From Deltaproteobacteria bacterium (lineage in GTDB: Bacteria > JAUYMQ01), in the NCBI GenBank assembly GCA_030698575.1, contig JAUYMQ010000521.1, positions 1 to 10,982 on the forward strand: 10,982 bases of DNA. Reading direction: 5' to 3'. The translations under genes and the position numbers were made by a program. Shown piece by piece: positions 3,398 through 9,467 of this stretch; within the stretch, counting starts at the first letter, position 1, and the number at the start of each line of letters is the position of its first letter. The notes beneath the pieces are model-generated. The model made no database searches. It saw nothing but the letters and a program-made list of their open reading frames with translations, and was not told the DNA's origin.

Positions 3398-4960
3398 CTA
3401 TTCGCGCGCGAATCGGCTCCGATCGATGTTGTACTTCTTCAGCAGCTGTTGCAGCAGCGTGCGGTTCATCCCCGCTGCAGCCGCCGCCTGGGTCACGTTT
3501 CCCTTGCTTGCCGTGAGTATCTGCTCGAGGAATCTTCGCTCCACCTCGGCGGCCGCCTGATCCCGGGCCCTGCGCTTCGCCTCCTTGAGATCCTCGTTCA
3601 TGACAACCCCGTCCCGCGCCTCCGGTGCGCTGCTGAGGGCAGCCGCCAAATCAGGCGGCAGATCCGACTTCTCGATTTGCGGACCGCGGCTCAGGACGAT
3701 GCCGCGCTGGATGACGTTTTCGAGCTCGCGCACGTTGCCCGGCCAATGATGGGCGCGCATGGCATCCATCGCCGCGGACGTAAGGCTCTTGAGATTCTTT
3801 CGCGACTCCTTTGCGTATCGCTCGAGGAAGAACGCGACGAGCAGGTCCAGGTCGGCGATGCGCTCGCGCAGCGGTGGCAGGATGATCGGCACGACGTTCA
3901 ACCTGTAAAAGAGATCCTCGCGAAATTTTCCCTCGCGGACCTGTTTCTCGAGGTCGAGGTTGGTGGCGGCAATCACGCGGATGTCCACGGCGATCGGGCG
4001 ATTGCCGCCGACGCGCTCGATCTCGTGCTCCTGAAGCAGCCGGAGGAGCTTGATCTGCAGCTCCTGTGGCATCTCGCCGATCTCGTCGAGAAAGAGCGTG
4101 CCCCTCTGGGCCAGCTCGACCTTGCCGATCTTCTGCCGCGTCGCCCCCGTGAAAGATCCCTTCTCGTGGCCGAACAGTTCCGAGGCGAGCAGTTCCTGAG
4201 ACAGCGTGGTGCAGTTCACCGCAACGAAGGGCCGCCCGGCGCGGGGACTCCACTGGGTAATCGCCCGCGCGAAGATCTCCTTGCCGGTTCCGCTTTCTCC
4301 CAGCAGGAGGACCGTGGCCTTCGAATCCGCCACGGCCTTGGCCAGATCGATGACCCGCGTCAGCGCCGGGCTCTCACCCACGATCTGATAGCGCTTCGAG
4401 ACCTGAACCCGGAGTTCCTCGCGCTCCTGATTGGCCACCCCGTAAAGCCGCGCGTTCTCGATGGCGATCGCGGCGAAATGGGCGAAAGCCATGATCAGCG
4501 CCATGTCGCTCTCGTCGAAACCGCTCGCGCGCCTGGCGTTGATGGCCTCGAGTACGCCGATGAGCCGGTCTTTCACCTTGAGCGGGACGGCCAGCAGGGA
4601 CCTGGTATCGAAGCCGCTCTCCTCGTCGTAACCTGAATAGAAGCGGGAATCCTTGTGGGCGTCGCCGATGAGGACGGGCTTCCCCTCGCGAGCCACCCAT
4701 CCGGCCACGCCCGTATCCACCGGCAACCGCTGCTCCCTGAGTTCCTCCCCCTTCGCGCCCTTGGCGACCGCAAAAACGAGAGAGGTCCCCGCCTCGTCGA
4801 GCAGGAGGAGGCTGATTGCTTCGCACTGAAGGAGTTCGCCGGCCCGCGTCACAAGGACATCCAGGATGGCGTCCAGTTCGAGGGTCGATGTGAGAAGGCC
4901 GCCTACTTCGAGAAGGCTCTCGAGGCGTCCTGCTGGGATTCGGCCGAGGTCTTTGGTCAA
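3398..4960 (-). CDS. Sigma-54-dependent transcriptional activator (GAF - AAA+ - Fis HTH)
   Basis: A bacterial enhancer-binding protein of 520 residues from the TTG at 4960. A GAF sensor domain (about 27-172) comes first, then a short coiled linker. The AAA+ sigma-54 contact domain (about 192-420) has Walker A GESGTGKE (221-228), the sigma-54 loop as GSFTGA (268-273), Walker B FLDEIGEM (D292, E293), arginine-finger region [11 protein letters not shown] (347-357) and [12 protein letters not shown] (406-417). A Fis-type HTH ends it: [24 protein letters not shown] (487-510, long hairpin-free helix pair). There is no receiver domain, so it answers to a ligand, redox state or partner rather than to a kinase. 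The frame stays open to 5233, but a good promoter at 5015-5043 lies inside that extension. I therefore place the start at TTG 4960, which has AGGGG 7 nt upstream. The target genes are not evident; the adjacent small gene is probably cotranscribed. Confidence 0.93.
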
Positions 4961-5007
4961 GGGGGCACCCCTGGGTCCGGCATCTCCGGGCGACGGGACC
5001 AGAGTGT

Positions 5008-5115: not shown

Positions 5116-5129
5116 CGGGAATATTCCCG
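5116..5129. promoter_or_regulatory. Perfect 14-bp palindrome, CGGGAATATTCCCG
   Basis: An uninterrupted palindrome in the gap between the sigma-54 activator and the ECF sigma gene, 53 bp before the latter. It overlaps the -35-like GGAATA of the candidate ECF promoter, so it may be an operator, or the symmetry may be incidental to the promoter element. Confidence 0.4.
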
Positions 5130-5146
5130 CGGGGCCGACACGTCTT
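5118..5146 (+). promoter_or_regulatory. Candidate ECF-type promoter of the sigma factor operon
   Basis: GGAATA (5118-5123) is followed after 17 nt by CGTCTT (5141-5146). ECF (group IV) promoters commonly have a GGAA-type -35 and a CGTC-type -10 at 16-17 nt, and ECF operons are often autoregulated. Transcription would start about 5152-5155. I see no sigma-70 promoter for this operon in the gap. Confidence 0.4.
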
Positions 5147-5181: not shown

Positions 5182-5922
5182 TTGAGCCATTTCTCCATTC
5201 GAACGCCGCTCGCGCCCCTTCTGCTGGCGGCAACTGCCGCCGGGGCCGGCGCCTCTGGTCCGGACCGGAACCACGCCTTGTCCCGTGATCGCGAGAACAC
5301 CCCCCCTCGCCCTCCCGAGCCCACCGCCTCCGGGCCGACGGACGAGTATCTGCTGTGGGTGGCGGAAGCCCGGACCGAGAGCGCTGCCGGGGATCGGGCG
5401 TTCACGCGGCTGGTGGAACTTTACCGCTCGCGGGTGGTATCGCTGGTGGCGGCGCACCTCGGCGACGCCGATCAGGCGGAGGATGTTGCGCAGGAGGTCT
5501 TCCTGAAGGCGCGGGCGGCCCTGCCCTCCGTTCGGGAGGAGGCGCGGTTCGAGTCCTGGCTCCTGCGCATCGCCTATCGGACCGCGATCGATCACACGCG
5601 CGGGTTCTGGTGGCGGCGGCGGGTGAGCCTCGAGAGGCTTGCGGAGTCCGCCCGCGAGACGGCGCTGGCGGGCGCCGCGGTGGCCGGGGCGGGGAATGAT
5701 CCGGAGAGCACGCTCCTGCGCTCCGAACGGTCGAGCCAGGTTCGCAAGGCCCTTCGCGAAGTGCCCGAGGCCTTCCGGGCGCCGGTGGTCCTGAGAGATA
5801 TTGCCGGTCTCTCTTACGAGGAAATCGGTCGCATCCTCAACTGTCCGCTTGGCACCGTCGAGTCGCGAATACACCGGGGCCGACAAGCCCTTCGCAGGAA
5901 ACTGGAGAAGCTGCTGCCATGA
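5182..5922 (+). CDS. ECF (group IV) RNA polymerase sigma factor, RpoE-like
   Basis: 246 residues from the TTG at 5182. Region 2 spans about 73-140, with [30 protein letters not shown] (97-110) and [19 protein letters not shown] (122-140). Region 4 spans about 185-240, with the [23 protein letters not shown] (210-229). No region 3 or 1.1 is present, so it is an ECF factor directing polymerase to stress promoters. The first 60 residues are an odd Ala/Pro-rich tail. TTG 5182 has no good ribosome site. TTG 5278 has GGAA 7 nt before it and would give a more usual 214 residues; the start is therefore uncertain. The stop overlaps the anti-sigma ATG by 4 nt (ATGA), so the pair is translationally coupled. 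Activity is expected to be held off by the next gene's product. Confidence 0.93.
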
Positions 5923-6356
5923 ACTCCGAAATGCGGTGTCAGGATGTCCGCTCCCGCCTGTCCGGCTACCACGACAGCGCACTGCCTCCGCCGCTCGCCG
6001 GGAGCATCCGCCTTCATCTGGACAAGTGCCCCGACTGCGCCGGGGAGCTGGCGGCGATCTCTCGCGTGGCCGGACTGGTCAGCGGGAGCATGCTGGACGC
6101 ACGGCCCGGCTTCGAGGAACGGTTCGCGCGCAAACTCACGGCGCGGCGCGCGGCAGGAGAGTCCTGGGCGGCGCGGGCACGGCTGGCGAAACGGCTGAGC
6201 GCCTATGCCGCCGCGTTCCTGCTCGCGGCGCTCGTCGGGCTCGGACCGGCCGTCGTCCGTGACGTGCGGGATTACGTGGCGCCATCCAGCGACGCTCAGA
6301 TTCTCTACCTGGCGCTCATCGAGAACGGTTCAGGGGATCAGGAGGATTCGCATTGA
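5919..6356 (+). CDS. Zinc-finger (zf-HC2) anti-sigma factor, single-pass membrane protein
   Basis: 145 residues. The N-terminal anti-sigma domain carries the ZAS-type signature H33-x3-C37-x2-C40 (HLDKCPDC) plus C7, all four expected zinc ligands. A hydrophobic helix at about 93-113 (LSAYAAAFLLAALVGLG) would anchor it in the inner membrane, leaving a short periplasmic tail of about 30 residues. It should bind and silence the ECF factor encoded immediately upstream, with which it overlaps by 4 nt. Its own stop overlaps the next TTG start as TTGA. ZAS anti-sigmas are released by redox or by proteolysis; with a conserved HCC set either is possible. The small periplasmic tail suggests that the partner LTxxQ proteins may do the sensing. 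Confidence 0.92.
   Translation: MNSEMRCQDVRSRLSGYHDSALPPPLAGSIRLHLDKCPDCAGELAAISRVAGLVSGSMLDARPGFEERFARKLTARRAAGESWAARARLAKRLSAYAAAFLLAALVGLGPAVVRDVRDYVAPSSDAQILYLALIENGSGDQEDSH
6340..6345 (+). promoter_or_regulatory. Ribosome binding site for the TTG-started anchored LTxxQ gene
   Basis: AGGAGG lies 7 nt before TTG at 6353, inside the end of the anti-sigma gene. It supports a TTG start that shares bases with the upstream TGA stop. Confidence 0.75.
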
Positions 6357-6796
6357 ATTCGGAAAGACGTTGGATCGGAGTTTTCTCGGCGCTTCTGTTG
6401 CTGCTCGGGATCTTCATCGGCATCGCGATGGATCGATTCCTCTTCCGGCCCGGGCCGCCGCGCATCTCCGTGGCCGGTGGAGCGGAACCGGGACGGCGTC
6501 CCGCGGGCGACGCCCGCCATTTCCTGGAGCGGCTCACCTTGCAACTGGATCTGACGGATGAGCAGCGCGGGCAGGTGGAAGAGGTGTTCAATCGTAACAT
6601 TCCGCGCTTTCGCGAGGCGCGGGGCAACCGGGCTGGCTTTCAGGAGGCCCGCCGCCAGATGTGGGAAGAGCTGGCAGCCGTGCTCGGTGAAGAGCAGATG
6701 AAGCAGCTTGACGAACTGAGACGCAGCGAGCGGGACGAGCATCGCAAGCAACGGGGACTGCCGCCGGGCCCGGGCGCCCCCCCCCGCAACGAATGA
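6353..6796 (+). CDS. Membrane-anchored periplasmic LTxxQ / heavy-metal-sensor-like protein
   Basis: 147 residues. An N-terminal hydrophobic helix (about 7-26, WIGVFSALLLLLGIFIGIAM) follows arginines and has no clear signal-peptidase site, so it probably stays as a membrane anchor. The periplasmic part is helical and holds LTDEQ (67-71) and a degenerate second copy, LGEEQ (111-115), the hallmark repeats of the Spy/CpxP/ZraP and Metal_resist (CnrX-like) group. The C-terminus is charged and then Pro/Gly-rich. Only two histidines and two methionines after the anchor are seen, so a CnrX-type metal site is not evident. It sits directly behind the anti-sigma gene, overlapping by 4 nt. That fits a sensor or modulator of the sigma/anti-sigma pair, as CnrX is in CnrYXH; this role is inferred. 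Confidence 0.85.
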   Translation: MNSERRWIGVFSALLLLLGIFIGIAMDRFLFRPGPPRISVAGGAEPGRRPAGDARHFLERLTLQLDLTDEQRGQVEEVFNRNIPRFREARGNRAGFQEARRQMWEELAAVLGEEQMKQLDELRRSERDEHRKQRGLPPGPGAPPRNE

Positions 6797-6847
6797 TCGC
6801 CGCGCCCAACGGCGCGACGGGTATCACGACGATTTCCCAGAGGGGAG

Positions 6848-6853
6848 AGGAGG
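6848..6853 (+). promoter_or_regulatory. Ribosome binding site deciding the start of the secreted LTxxQ gene
   Basis: AGGAGG sits 8 nt before ATG 6862. This favours 6862 over the in-frame ATG at 6793, which would put 23 non-signal-like residues ahead of the signal peptide. Confidence 0.75.
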
Positions 6854-6861
6854 CAAGCACG

Positions 6862-7314
6862 ATGCGTTCAAACCGTATGCTTCACTTCACCCTGCCGGCG
6901 GCGCTCGCGATGGCCGTCGCGCTCTTCGCCTGGGCAAGTCAGGCCCCGGCCTTCCCGCGCGGGCAAGGTCACGACGCCCCTTCGGTGGCGCTCGAGAAGG
7001 CCGCCGAACTCGGACTGACGGATGAACAGGTGCAGCAAGTCCGCTCGCTCAGGGAAAAGCAGCTCTCCTCAATGGCTGGACCTCATGATGCGCTGAAGTC
7101 GCGGCAGGCGGCCCTCCGGGCGCTGCTCTCCGCGGATCCGATCGACCGCGGTGCGGCCGAGCGGGAGATCGATGCACTCGTGAAAGAGAGCTCCGATTTC
7201 CAGCGGCGACGGCTGCAGGCGAAGATCGATCTGGCGGAGATACTCACGCCCGAGCAGCGGGGCAGGCTGAAGGAACTCAATCGGCCGAGGCGCGGTCGCC
7301 CCGGTCACCGCTAG
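6862..7314 (+). CDS. Secreted Spy/CpxP-like LTxxQ periplasmic protein
   Basis: 150 residues. A typical signal peptide (1-30: Arg-containing n-region, hydrophobic TLPAALAMAVALFAWAS, likely cleavage after APA) leads into an all-helical body of about 120 residues. It has two LTxxQ motifs, LTDEQ (52-56) and LTPEQ (128-132), and a basic tail (RPRRGRPGHR). Spy and CpxP relatives are ATP-independent periplasmic chaperones or stress sensors, induced with envelope-stress regulons. This one closes the operon, 65 nt after the anchored LTxxQ gene. An in-frame ATG at 6793 overlaps the upstream stop as ATGA but lacks a signal peptide at its start and a good ribosome site. The TAG stop lies in a CTAG shared with the convergent gene, and a strong terminator follows 10 nt on. 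Confidence 0.88.
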   Translation: MRSNRMLHFTLPAALAMAVALFAWASQAPAFPRGQGHDAPSVALEKAAELGLTDEQVQQVRSLREKQLSSMAGPHDALKSRQAALRALLSADPIDRGAAEREIDALVKESSDFQRRRLQAKIDLAEILTPEQRGRLKELNRPRRGRPGHR

Positions 7315-9467
7315 TCGTCCGTGGAGGGCGCGGTCCCGGCCGCGCCCTCTTCGTTTTCGTCCGCCGGCGCGCCACGAACCTGCATGGGTGGGTACCGCGC
7401 GACGAGTCCGTTGTCGCCGGCCGCCCAGGCGCCGCCGTCGTCGAGCTGGACGAACGCGCGGAGGAAACGTGAGGGACCAATCACCTGGCGGCGCCAGTTG
7501 CGCCCGCCGTCCGTTGTAACGTGTATCGATTGCGGCCCGGCGAGCCAGCCACGCTTCGGATCGGCAAAGAAGGATGCGCGGACATCCCTCGCCGGAAGTT
7601 CGATCGCCTGCCATTCCGCGCCGGCGGTCTCGGTGATGTAGAGGAGATCCGGCGAGCCCTCCTTCCGCCCCAGAACCCACCCGTGCGCGGCGTCTACGAA
7701 CTGCAGGGCCCTGAGGCGCGCGTCCGGATCCACCACCACCCGATCCCATGCCTCTCCCCCGTTTCGCGTCCGAAGAAGCCGCCCCTCGGCCTGGAGGGCG
7801 AGCAGATGCTCCGGCGCCGGCGCGGCGAGATCGACGAAGCTGCCCGCCCCCAGCCCCGACGGAAGCGATGCGGCTGTGAGCGATTGCCCGTCGTTGCCGG
7901 AACGATAGATCGTGGAGGCGGTCGCGGCCCATAGTGCATTCCGCTCGACGAGAGCGACCGCGACGATCGCGCCGCTGATTCCCGTGCTCCGGCGGATCCA
8001 GCTGTCGCCTCCGTCCGCCGTCGTCATGAGCAGGCCGTTTTCGCCAGCCGCGGCGCCGCGTGAGGAATCCTGAAACGCAAGATCGAGGATGTCCTCGCGC
8101 GTCGTCGTTCGCTGCGACCGCCAGGGGCTGCGCCAGGGATGCCCCTCGGAAATCGAAGCCAGAACGGTGCCGCCTCCTCCAGCTGCCCAGGCGCGGGCGC
8201 TCTCCGGGGAAAGCAGCACGCTCTGCACGCGGCGAAGCGGTGAATCGAACCGGCGCGACCCCTCCCGCCAGCGCTTCCCGCCGTCCTCCGTGACGAGAAT
8301 CCGCCCGGCCCGTCCGACCGCCCAGCCACGTTGCGGGTCAGCAAAGTGAACATCGGTAAGATCGAAGAATTCACCGCCGATCTGGACCGGCCAGGTTCGG
8401 GCGCCGTCGCGCGTTGCCCGGAGGTTACCGTTGCCGTCAAGGGCAAGGCCGTTGCGCCCGTCGGACATGGAAAAGCTGACCAGTTCGGCGCCTTCGCCGC
8501 GGCGAGCCTTGTATGCCTGCTTCCAGAACCGGCCCAGGCTTCGCGTGCGGAACAGTCGCTGCGTCCCGCCATCCATCACTTCCGCCAGGCCGTTGTACCG
8601 GTCGACGAAGCGGACATGTGAGATGTAGGACGCCCCATCCGGTCCGCCGTCGAATTCGAGAAGGTGCTCGAGCGCGCGAACGGGCCGCCAGCTTTCGCCG
8701 CCGTCGTCGGTTGCGAATATGCTCTTCCCGTCCGTCGCGTAACCGCGCCGGCCGCTCACGAACCACCAGCCAGGCGCGTCTTCGAGAGCCACCCAGCTCG
8801 TTCCGGCGTCGCGCGTGCCGAGAAGGAGTCCGGGGCCGCCCGCCCAGCCGGTTTTCTCGCTCAGCATTTGCACGACGGTCAGATCGCCCGACACCGCCTC
8901 CTCGTAACGGGCCCAGGTGGACCCGCCGTCGATTGTATGCAGGAGCAGCCCGCGCTGACCGACGGCCCAACCCTTCTCCTCGTCGACGAAATCCAGGTGC
9001 AGCACCCGATCGGACGAAGCAGCCCTCACGCTCTTCCAGGTTCCACCGCCGTCGTCCGTCCTGAGGATCTCGCCGTCAGTCGCGAGCGCGAAACCGCGAT
9101 CAGGCCCCTTCCAGTCGAGCTGAACAAAACGCCCAAGGTCCACGCCGACGAGCGCCTCCCAGGATCGGCCGGCATCGCGAGTCCGGTAGACGCCCCCGGA
9201 GACCCCGCCCACCCAGGCGTGCTCTCCGTCGACGGCCCACAGTGCCGTCAGATCGTCGTCGATCCCGGACTCGATGACCCGCCATCTGTCTTTGTCGTAG
9301 GGAGATCGGTAAGGCTTCTCGGAGGCGCGGTGCCCGTGGACGATCACCTGCGCCTGGTTGGCCCTTCGCCCCAGTCCAGGCGTGGGCTGGGGAAAGAGCA
9401 GCGCCGCCAGGCCCAGCAGGGCGATGGCGGTCGCTGAAAAGTGGAATAGACTGGAGTTGGGGATCAC
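7311..9467 (-). CDS. Secreted YCF48/BNR-type beta-propeller protein with about 13 Asp-box repeats
   Basis: 718 residues. A hydrophobic stretch (about 10-26) is signal-like, although the residues before it carry no Lys or Arg. The rest is a repeat protein with Asp-box motifs (S/T-x-D-x-G-x-x-W type) at about 95-103, 136-144, 177-185, 217-225, 252-260, 307-315, 351-359, 392-400, 482-490, 566-574, 611-619 and 650-658, and a degenerate one near 521-530. GW-AVG strands (167, 381, 597, 640) are typical of YCF48/Hcf136-like propellers. The number of repeats suggests two propellers, or one large one, in the periplasm or outside the cell. No sialidase active-site pattern (arginine triad with FRIP) is seen, so it is probably a binding or assembly scaffold, not an enzyme. 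Start is GTG 9467, the only usable one, without a Shine-Dalgarno. It ends on a CTAG shared with the convergent gene. Confidence 0.85.
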   Translation of the reverse strand: MIPNSSLFHFSATAIALLGLAALLFPQPTPGLGRRANQAQVIVHGHRASEKPYRSPYDKDRWRVIESGIDDDLTALWAVDGEHAWVGGVSGGVYRTRDAGRSWEALVGVDLGRFVQLDWKGPDRGFALATDGEILRTDDGGGTWKSVRAASSDRVLHLDFVDEEKGWAVGQRGLLLHTIDGGSTWARYEEAVSGDLTVVQMLSEKTGWAGGPGLLLGTRDAGTSWVALEDAPGWWFVSGRRGYATDGKSIFATDDGGESWRPVRALEHLLEFDGGPDGASYISHVRFVDRYNGLAEVMDGGTQRLFRTRSLGRFWKQAYKARRGEGAELVSFSMSDGRNGLALDGNGNLRATRDGARTWPVQIGGEFFDLTDVHFADPQRGWAVGRAGRILVTEDGGKRWREGSRRFDSPLRRVQSVLLSPESARAWAAGGGGTVLASISEGHPWRSPWRSQRTTTREDILDLAFQDSSRGAAAGENGLLMTTADGGDSWIRRSTGISGAIVAVALVERNALWAATASTIYRSGNDGQSLTAASLPSGLGAGSFVDLAAPAPEHLLALQAEGRLLRTRNGGEAWDRVVVDPDARLRALQFVDAAHGWVLGRKEGSPDLLYITETAGAEWQAIELPARDVRASFFADPKRGWLAGPQSIHVTTDGGRNWRRQVIGPSRFLRAFVQLDDGGAWAAGDNGLVARYPPMQVRGAPADENEEGAAGTAPSTDD
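7324..7357 (+). terminator. Intrinsic terminator of the ECF sigma operon
   Basis: GAGGGCGCGG (7324-7333) and CCGCGCCCTC (7340-7349) form a perfect 10-bp GC-rich stem with a 6-nt loop, followed by the T-rich tail TTCGTTTT. It begins 10 nt after the stop of the secreted LTxxQ gene. It lies inside the last codons of the convergent propeller gene; on that strand no T-run follows, so it should act only for the plus-strand operon. Confidence 0.75.

Follow-up and report, generated by a model that had tools for sequence, protein, structure and literature searches.

The 10,982-nt stretch of DNA analysed here (positions 1 to 10,982 of contig JAUYMQ010000521.1, assembly GCA_030698575.1, from a Deltaproteobacteria bacterium; hereafter the window) carries at 5182-7314, on the forward strand, four successive genes encoding an extracytoplasmic function (ECF) sigma factor, a zinc-finger anti-sigma factor, a short LTxxQ protein anchored in the membrane (gene 3) and a secreted LTxxQ protein of the Spy type (gene 4). 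The same arrangement recurs across bacterial families and looks like a common, little-studied way of sensing trouble outside the cytoplasm. With slightly better than even confidence, we propose that the anchored protein acts as the sensor-partner of the anti-sigma factor and that the free protein serves as a sigma-induced chaperone and as the feedback arm of the circuit. Gene content and order had been put forward in an original prediction, and both were borne out by Pfam and NCBIfam scores, the HCC motif of the anti-sigma factor, an anchor helix in gene 3 and a signal-peptide-like N-terminus in gene 4. The overlaps said to couple the first three genes are real as well, ATGA between sigma and anti-sigma genes (5919-5922) and TTGA between the anti-sigma gene and gene 3 (6353-6356). 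The operon comprises the following features:

5118-5146, + strand: candidate ECF-type promoter, GGAATA-N17-CGTCTT (consensus match only)
5182-5922, + strand: ECF sigma factor (Pfam Sigma70_r2 and Sigma70_r4_2, NCBIfam sigma70-ECF, over cut-off)
5919-6356, + strand: class I zinc-finger anti-sigma factor (ZAS; zf-HC2 over cut-off, HCC motif at 6015-6038)
6340-6345, + strand: Shine-Dalgarno sequence AGGAGG for gene 3, 7 nt ahead of its TTG start (sequence)
6353-6796, + strand: membrane-anchored short LTxxQ protein, gene 3 (homologue alignment A4, AlphaFold2, VIA-align)
6844-6853, + strand: Shine-Dalgarno sequence GGAGAGGAGG for gene 4 (sequence)
6862-7314, + strand: secreted Spy/CpxP/ZraP-type LTxxQ protein, gene 4 (PF13801, PF07813, AlphaFold2, VIA-align)
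7323-7350, + strand: terminator-like hairpin, 12 pairs followed by TCGTTTTCGT (hairpin scan)

The sigma factor matches Pfam Sigma70_r4_2 (1.3e-14) and Sigma70_r2 (5.2e-14) and, having regions 2 and 4 only, is of the ECF type. Its start at TTG 5182 is doubtful, as it places about 70 extra residues ahead of region 2; the in-frame starts TTG 5278 and GTG 5359 appear as plausible. The candidate promoter raises the possibility that the sigma operon is autoregulated, and the pattern GGAA[CT]-N15-19-CGTC was found upstream of 5 of the 39 sigma genes in such operons (shuffled sequences gave a mean of 0.5 and a maximum of 3). The anti-sigma factor scores 34.7 bits against zf-HC2 (1.8e-8; cut-off 22.2) and carries H33-x3-C37-x2-C40, which places it in class I of the zinc-finger anti-sigma factors. 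Hydropathy gives it a single hydrophobic helix at about residues 93-111, followed by a periplasmic tail of 34 residues. Because such a tail is too small for a sensor domain, sensing would be delegated to the anchored protein. The window genome holds three zinc-finger anti-sigma matches in all, and only that of the operon has LTxxQ genes beside it.

By prediction, both LTxxQ proteins adopt the hooked-hairpin fold of Spy and CnrX. Gene 4 most likely starts at ATG 6862, downstream of the strong ribosome site GGAGAGGAGG, rather than at 6793. Its product has two LTxxQ motifs and scores above both family cut-offs (Metal_resist, PF13801, 3.3e-12 and 47.1 bits; LTXXQ, PF07813, 1.6e-8 and 35.6 bits). 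Read by eye, its N-terminus has a hydrophobic stretch and then ASQAPAF, resembling a cleavable signal peptide. AlphaFold2 returned a full hooked hairpin (pLDDT 88), which VIA-align matched to ZraP (Z 10.5), CnrX (10.4), CpxP (10.0) and Spy (9.2), moderate values for helical bundles. Gene 3 has an LTDEQ motif at residues 67-71 and a degenerate LGEEQ at 111-115, about 40 residues lying between the two motifs in this short type; a second, long anchored type found in other genomes has a hairpin of Spy length. Taken alone, gene 3 stays under the Pfam cut-off (LTXXQ, 17.2 bits vs 24.3), and a profile of its short-type homologues matches Spy (2.6e-7), NccX (0.013) and CnrX (0.11). In the short-type alignment A4, G19 within a GxxxG-like anchor run, Q71 and L111 are invariant. 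The AlphaFold2 model of gene 3 has one continuous helix (3-31), which a loose linker joins to a set of four helices between residues 53 and 133, mostly at pLDDT 88-95, and its best VIA-align rows were STV (Z 7.7 over 73 residues, 2.3 A), Spy (6.7) and CnrX (5.9). Foldseek alone gave neither model a match with an E-value below 0.001. The predicted fold thus rests on VIA-align, on the homologue-profile match to Spy and on the Pfam scores of gene 4; with Z values being moderate, sequence profiles carry the family assignment.

As both proteins fall into the fold class of CnrX, as their Pfam family is named Heavy-metal resistance, and as some free members elsewhere (L057, L061) have Met/His-rich stretches, the operon might be read as a metal-sensing switch of the CnrYXH type, with a transition metal bound by the anchored protein and buffered by the free one. 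The metal site of CnrX is built from His, Glu, His and Met. The periplasmic part of gene 3 contains only two His (56 and 129) and lacks Cys. Alignments A2 (long anchored type), A4 and A5 have no conserved column of His, Cys or Met apart from the start Met. That the metal ligands of CnrX are not evident here had been stated before, and A2 and A4 agree with it. As the window has no efflux genes downstream either, we regard metal sensing as quite improbable.

The linkage of LTxxQ genes to sigma and anti-sigma genes was then followed through other genomes. The window species is the sole representative of its class/phylum in the genome sample, so that all comparisons are with distant bacteria; its lineage is barely sampled, and its own genome amounts to 4.13 Mb in 653 contigs. 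Throughout that genome, the Metal_resist model matches gene 4 only, while the LTXXQ model matches gene 4 and, below threshold, gene 3 and one piece on another contig; the position of the LTxxQ genes beside the sigma pair is not chance. When 59 genomes (all but one of them distant) were searched for similar sigma factors, 29 loci outside the window emerged, and five of these have an anchored LTxxQ gene behind the anti-sigma gene. The profile of the long anchored type (A2) found matches in 168 of 386 genomes, and most top matches, read with their flanks, stand behind sigma and anti-sigma genes. The same holds for most matches of a second profile, which was built from gene 3 and its nearest relative and used to find the short anchored type. 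A sigma gene lies 200-900 bp upstream of 27 of the 38 matches that include the anchor, compared to 9 of 33 without it (Fisher p 3e-4), and most of the 11 anchor-including exceptions look secreted when read. In total, a sigma gene precedes an anchored LTxxQ gene at 44 loci in 30 families, with an anti-sigma gene recognised in most but not all, and the full four-gene order is present at 15 loci in 12 families; as the loci were chosen by the quality of their match to the anchored profiles, these counts show recurrence, not frequency. They were made by eye, anchored and secreted proteins were told apart by their N-terminal sequence, and spread is given as families, since the genomes carry family codes rather than phyla. 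A search for the four-gene order across genomes, which the original prediction had suggested as a check, thus found it repeatedly, and the lack of conservation that was to speak against the idea was not seen: the linkage recurs, in distant bacteria rather than among orthologues. Viral contigs contained no relative, plasmids just one Shinella Spy gene without sigma/anti-sigma neighbours, and one scan of named genomes by sigma factor yielded two distant loci, both lacking an anchored LTxxQ gene.

The free LTxxQ gene is less constant. It adjoins about 20 of the 44 anchored loci, 15 of them in the exact order of the window, and was not found beside more than half. Five loci (L063, L125, L127, L131, L133) have it just upstream of the sigma gene and not at the operon end. 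Of the two-part mechanism proposed originally, the pairing of an anchored with a free protein therefore stands as a recurrent one, but the free member looks accessory rather than a necessary half of the sensor; it might titrate a ligand away from the anchored protein, as was suggested originally. Its absence from many loci also bears on the idea of gene 3 as a further negative regulator whose only role is to lock the anti-sigma factor in place, as artificially tethered CpxP does for Cpx, with the signal carried by titration of the free protein. We consider this very improbable, given that more than half of the anchored loci would lack their signal carrier.

Further evidence for a functional tie came from the anti-sigma tails and the gene junctions. 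Anti-sigma factors with an anchored partner have short tails, with medians of 49 (long type) and 40.5 residues (short type) vs 73 residues in 27 sigma-linked controls (p 5e-6). The 4-nt overlap of anti-sigma and anchored genes seen in the window is present in 11 of 18 operons inspected. Neither observation is explained if the operon encodes output only, that is, if both LTxxQ proteins are envelope chaperones made on sigma activity while the anti-sigma factor senses stress alone via regulated proteolysis; the tight tie of specifically the anchored kind to sigma/anti-sigma genes would be left unexplained as well. Operons with a sigma/anti-sigma pair and a single secreted-looking LTxxQ protein do exist (L067, L068, L071), and the LTxxQ protein of the cirYZ-spy operon is an induced output (PMC13114119), which fits such a scheme. 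On balance, an output-only operon appears rather unlikely to us.

In the circuit that we favour, with the anchored protein as sensor-partner, the zinc-finger anti-sigma factor would keep the sigma factor at the membrane, and sensing would be passed to the co-translated Spy-fold protein, placed beside the anti-sigma factor via its membrane helix and its hairpin domain. The best candidates for the ligand on the hairpin would be unfolded proteins of the envelope and amphipathic molecules, with a metal ion less likely. Engagement of the ligand would alter the grip on the anti-sigma factor and thereby free the sigma factor. The release could follow the CnrYXH pattern, by a change of conformation, or resemble what RseB does for RseA, with the tail laid open to proteolysis. 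The direction of control would thus run from the anchored protein to the anti-sigma factor. The freed sigma factor would then transcribe its own operon including the gene of the free Spy-type protein, which may act as output chaperone and feed back by competing for the same ligand. By analogy, the signal is more likely to be unfolded protein of the envelope, because the Spy cradle binds unfolded proteins (PMC8144458) and misfolded ones are believed to titrate CpxP (PMC6737893).

Several points weigh against this proposal. That the anchored protein touches the anti-sigma factor is an inference, and the neighbouring genes may be no more than co-regulated outputs. For gene 3, VIA Z-scores reach 7.7 at best, a modest value for a helical bundle, and the 44 and 15 loci, selected by best match to the anchored profiles, are not frequencies. 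A quick tree of 83 sigma factors puts 20 of the 24 long-type rows into one supported group, scatters the short-type sigma factors over several places and leaves that of the window unplaced; the pairing of sigma factor and anchored LTxxQ protein has either been kept over long times or been acquired more than once. Finally, a tail motif, P-x(1-2)-[SQ]-[ILVMF]-x(2-4)-[YHL] (e.g. LPPGSLGEAY), occurs in 14 of 23 long-type tails, against 3 of 29 among the controls and 6% among shuffled tails, but was defined and counted on the same sequences. It is likely to represent a common docking peptide in long-type operons. For the window operon it was rejected, as the anti-sigma tail lacks it (1.5 bits, not above shuffles).

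A wider version of the proposal is possible, if on the doubtful side: a tethered Spy/CpxP chaperone would be the sensor for a widespread class of ECF anti-sigma factors, its cradle reading unfolded envelope protein while gripping the short anti-sigma tail, and a free paralogue would compete for clients and end the response. ECF sigma factors form one of the major classes of signalling proteins, and most of them have no known sensor. If an anchored Spy-fold protein has this role, many orphan sigma/anti-sigma pairs in distant bacteria would gain a testable input, and proteins now filed under 'heavy-metal resistance' would be chaperone-type stress sensors.

The hairpin at 7323-7350 is weak by count (the scan found 1 vs 1.4 expected by shuffles), but its position and strength fit a terminator. 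Together with the convergent orientation of the next gene, it therefore suggests that the operon ends at the free LTxxQ gene. This next gene (7311-9467, - strand) encodes a 718-aa protein with many YCF48/BNR repeats. On the other side, a divergently oriented regulator with GAF, sigma-54 activator and Fis-type parts (3398-5000, - strand) has its intergenic region in common with the sigma operon.

Other operons of this kind carry further genes. Directly after the sigma/anti-sigma/anchored triple of L038 (reverse complement 7449-12064), genes for TolC-like, membrane-fusion-like and MacB-type ATPase and permease proteins were read from the sequence; they are likely an efflux output, which would fit a wider envelope-stress role. 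A lipoprotein-like gene downstream of the four-gene order is common to two distant genomes (L035 6745-7647, reverse complement; L037 10030-10923); its product shows WSA..VDG.M..W..FFE....LGL.NDSE and an LTxxQ-like stretch of its own, and the L037 copy has no Pfam match. In a short-type operon (L039 9422-10555), the free partner is a secreted-looking protein of 377 aa with repeated LSQEQ motifs and a terminal FlgD-like immunoglobulin (Ig) domain. The window genome itself has a second sigma/zinc-finger anti-sigma pair (L112 1468-2542), followed by a secreted-looking protein without Pfam match (core VKVIRASNDGTGIDPEL). The anti-sigma tail of this pair ends in STIIWVFDD, and the same triple with the same tail signature was found in three other families (L006, L019, L020), so that it appears to be another recurrent module of sigma factor, anti-sigma factor and partner.

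Among known systems, CnrYXH of Cupriavidus metallidurans is similar in its three-part layout, with an anchored hooked-hairpin sensor beside sigma and anti-sigma factors, and in the fold match to CnrX, which transmits to CnrY (PMC7689651). However, CnrY is a class II anti-sigma factor (PMC7406223), whereas that of the window is a class I zinc-finger protein. CnrX binds Co/Ni and requires Met123 (PMC7689651), whereas the window sensor has no conserved metal site. RND (resistance-nodulation-division) efflux genes lie near cnrYXH; in the window, gene 4 is followed by the hairpin and the convergent BNR/YCF48-like gene, and the free LTxxQ gene is extra. The CnrYXH-type pairing proposed in the original prediction hence holds for the layout, but not for the anti-sigma class, and the operon is better called CnrYXH-like. 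Operons of sigma factor, anti-sigma factor and Spy are already known: in cirYZ-spy of Phocaeicola vulgatus, described in 2026 together with a second such locus, deleting the anti-sigma gene cirZ increases both cirY and spy (PMC13114119). In gene content it is like the window operon, with an ECF sigma factor, an anti-sigma factor and a co-transcribed Spy-like protein, but one Spy-like gene per locus was described, not an anchored and a free one. In the literature searched, which mostly did not cover subscription papers, no sigma/anti-sigma pair was found described together with both an anchored and a free LTxxQ protein. Gene 4 resembles CpxP/Spy of the E. coli Cpx system, where a free LTxxQ protein with this fold is made as part of the response and in turn acts on its sensor (PMC6737893). 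The target of CpxP is a histidine kinase, and not an anti-sigma factor. In the RseA/RseB system of E. coli, as in the proposed circuit, a separate periplasmic protein guards the anti-sigma factor; unlike gene 3, RseB has an unrelated fold and is unanchored, and RseA has a long periplasmic domain. The proposed circuit would work like CnrYXH and CpxP and belongs to neither, because its anti-sigma class differs and the metal site of CnrX is missing.
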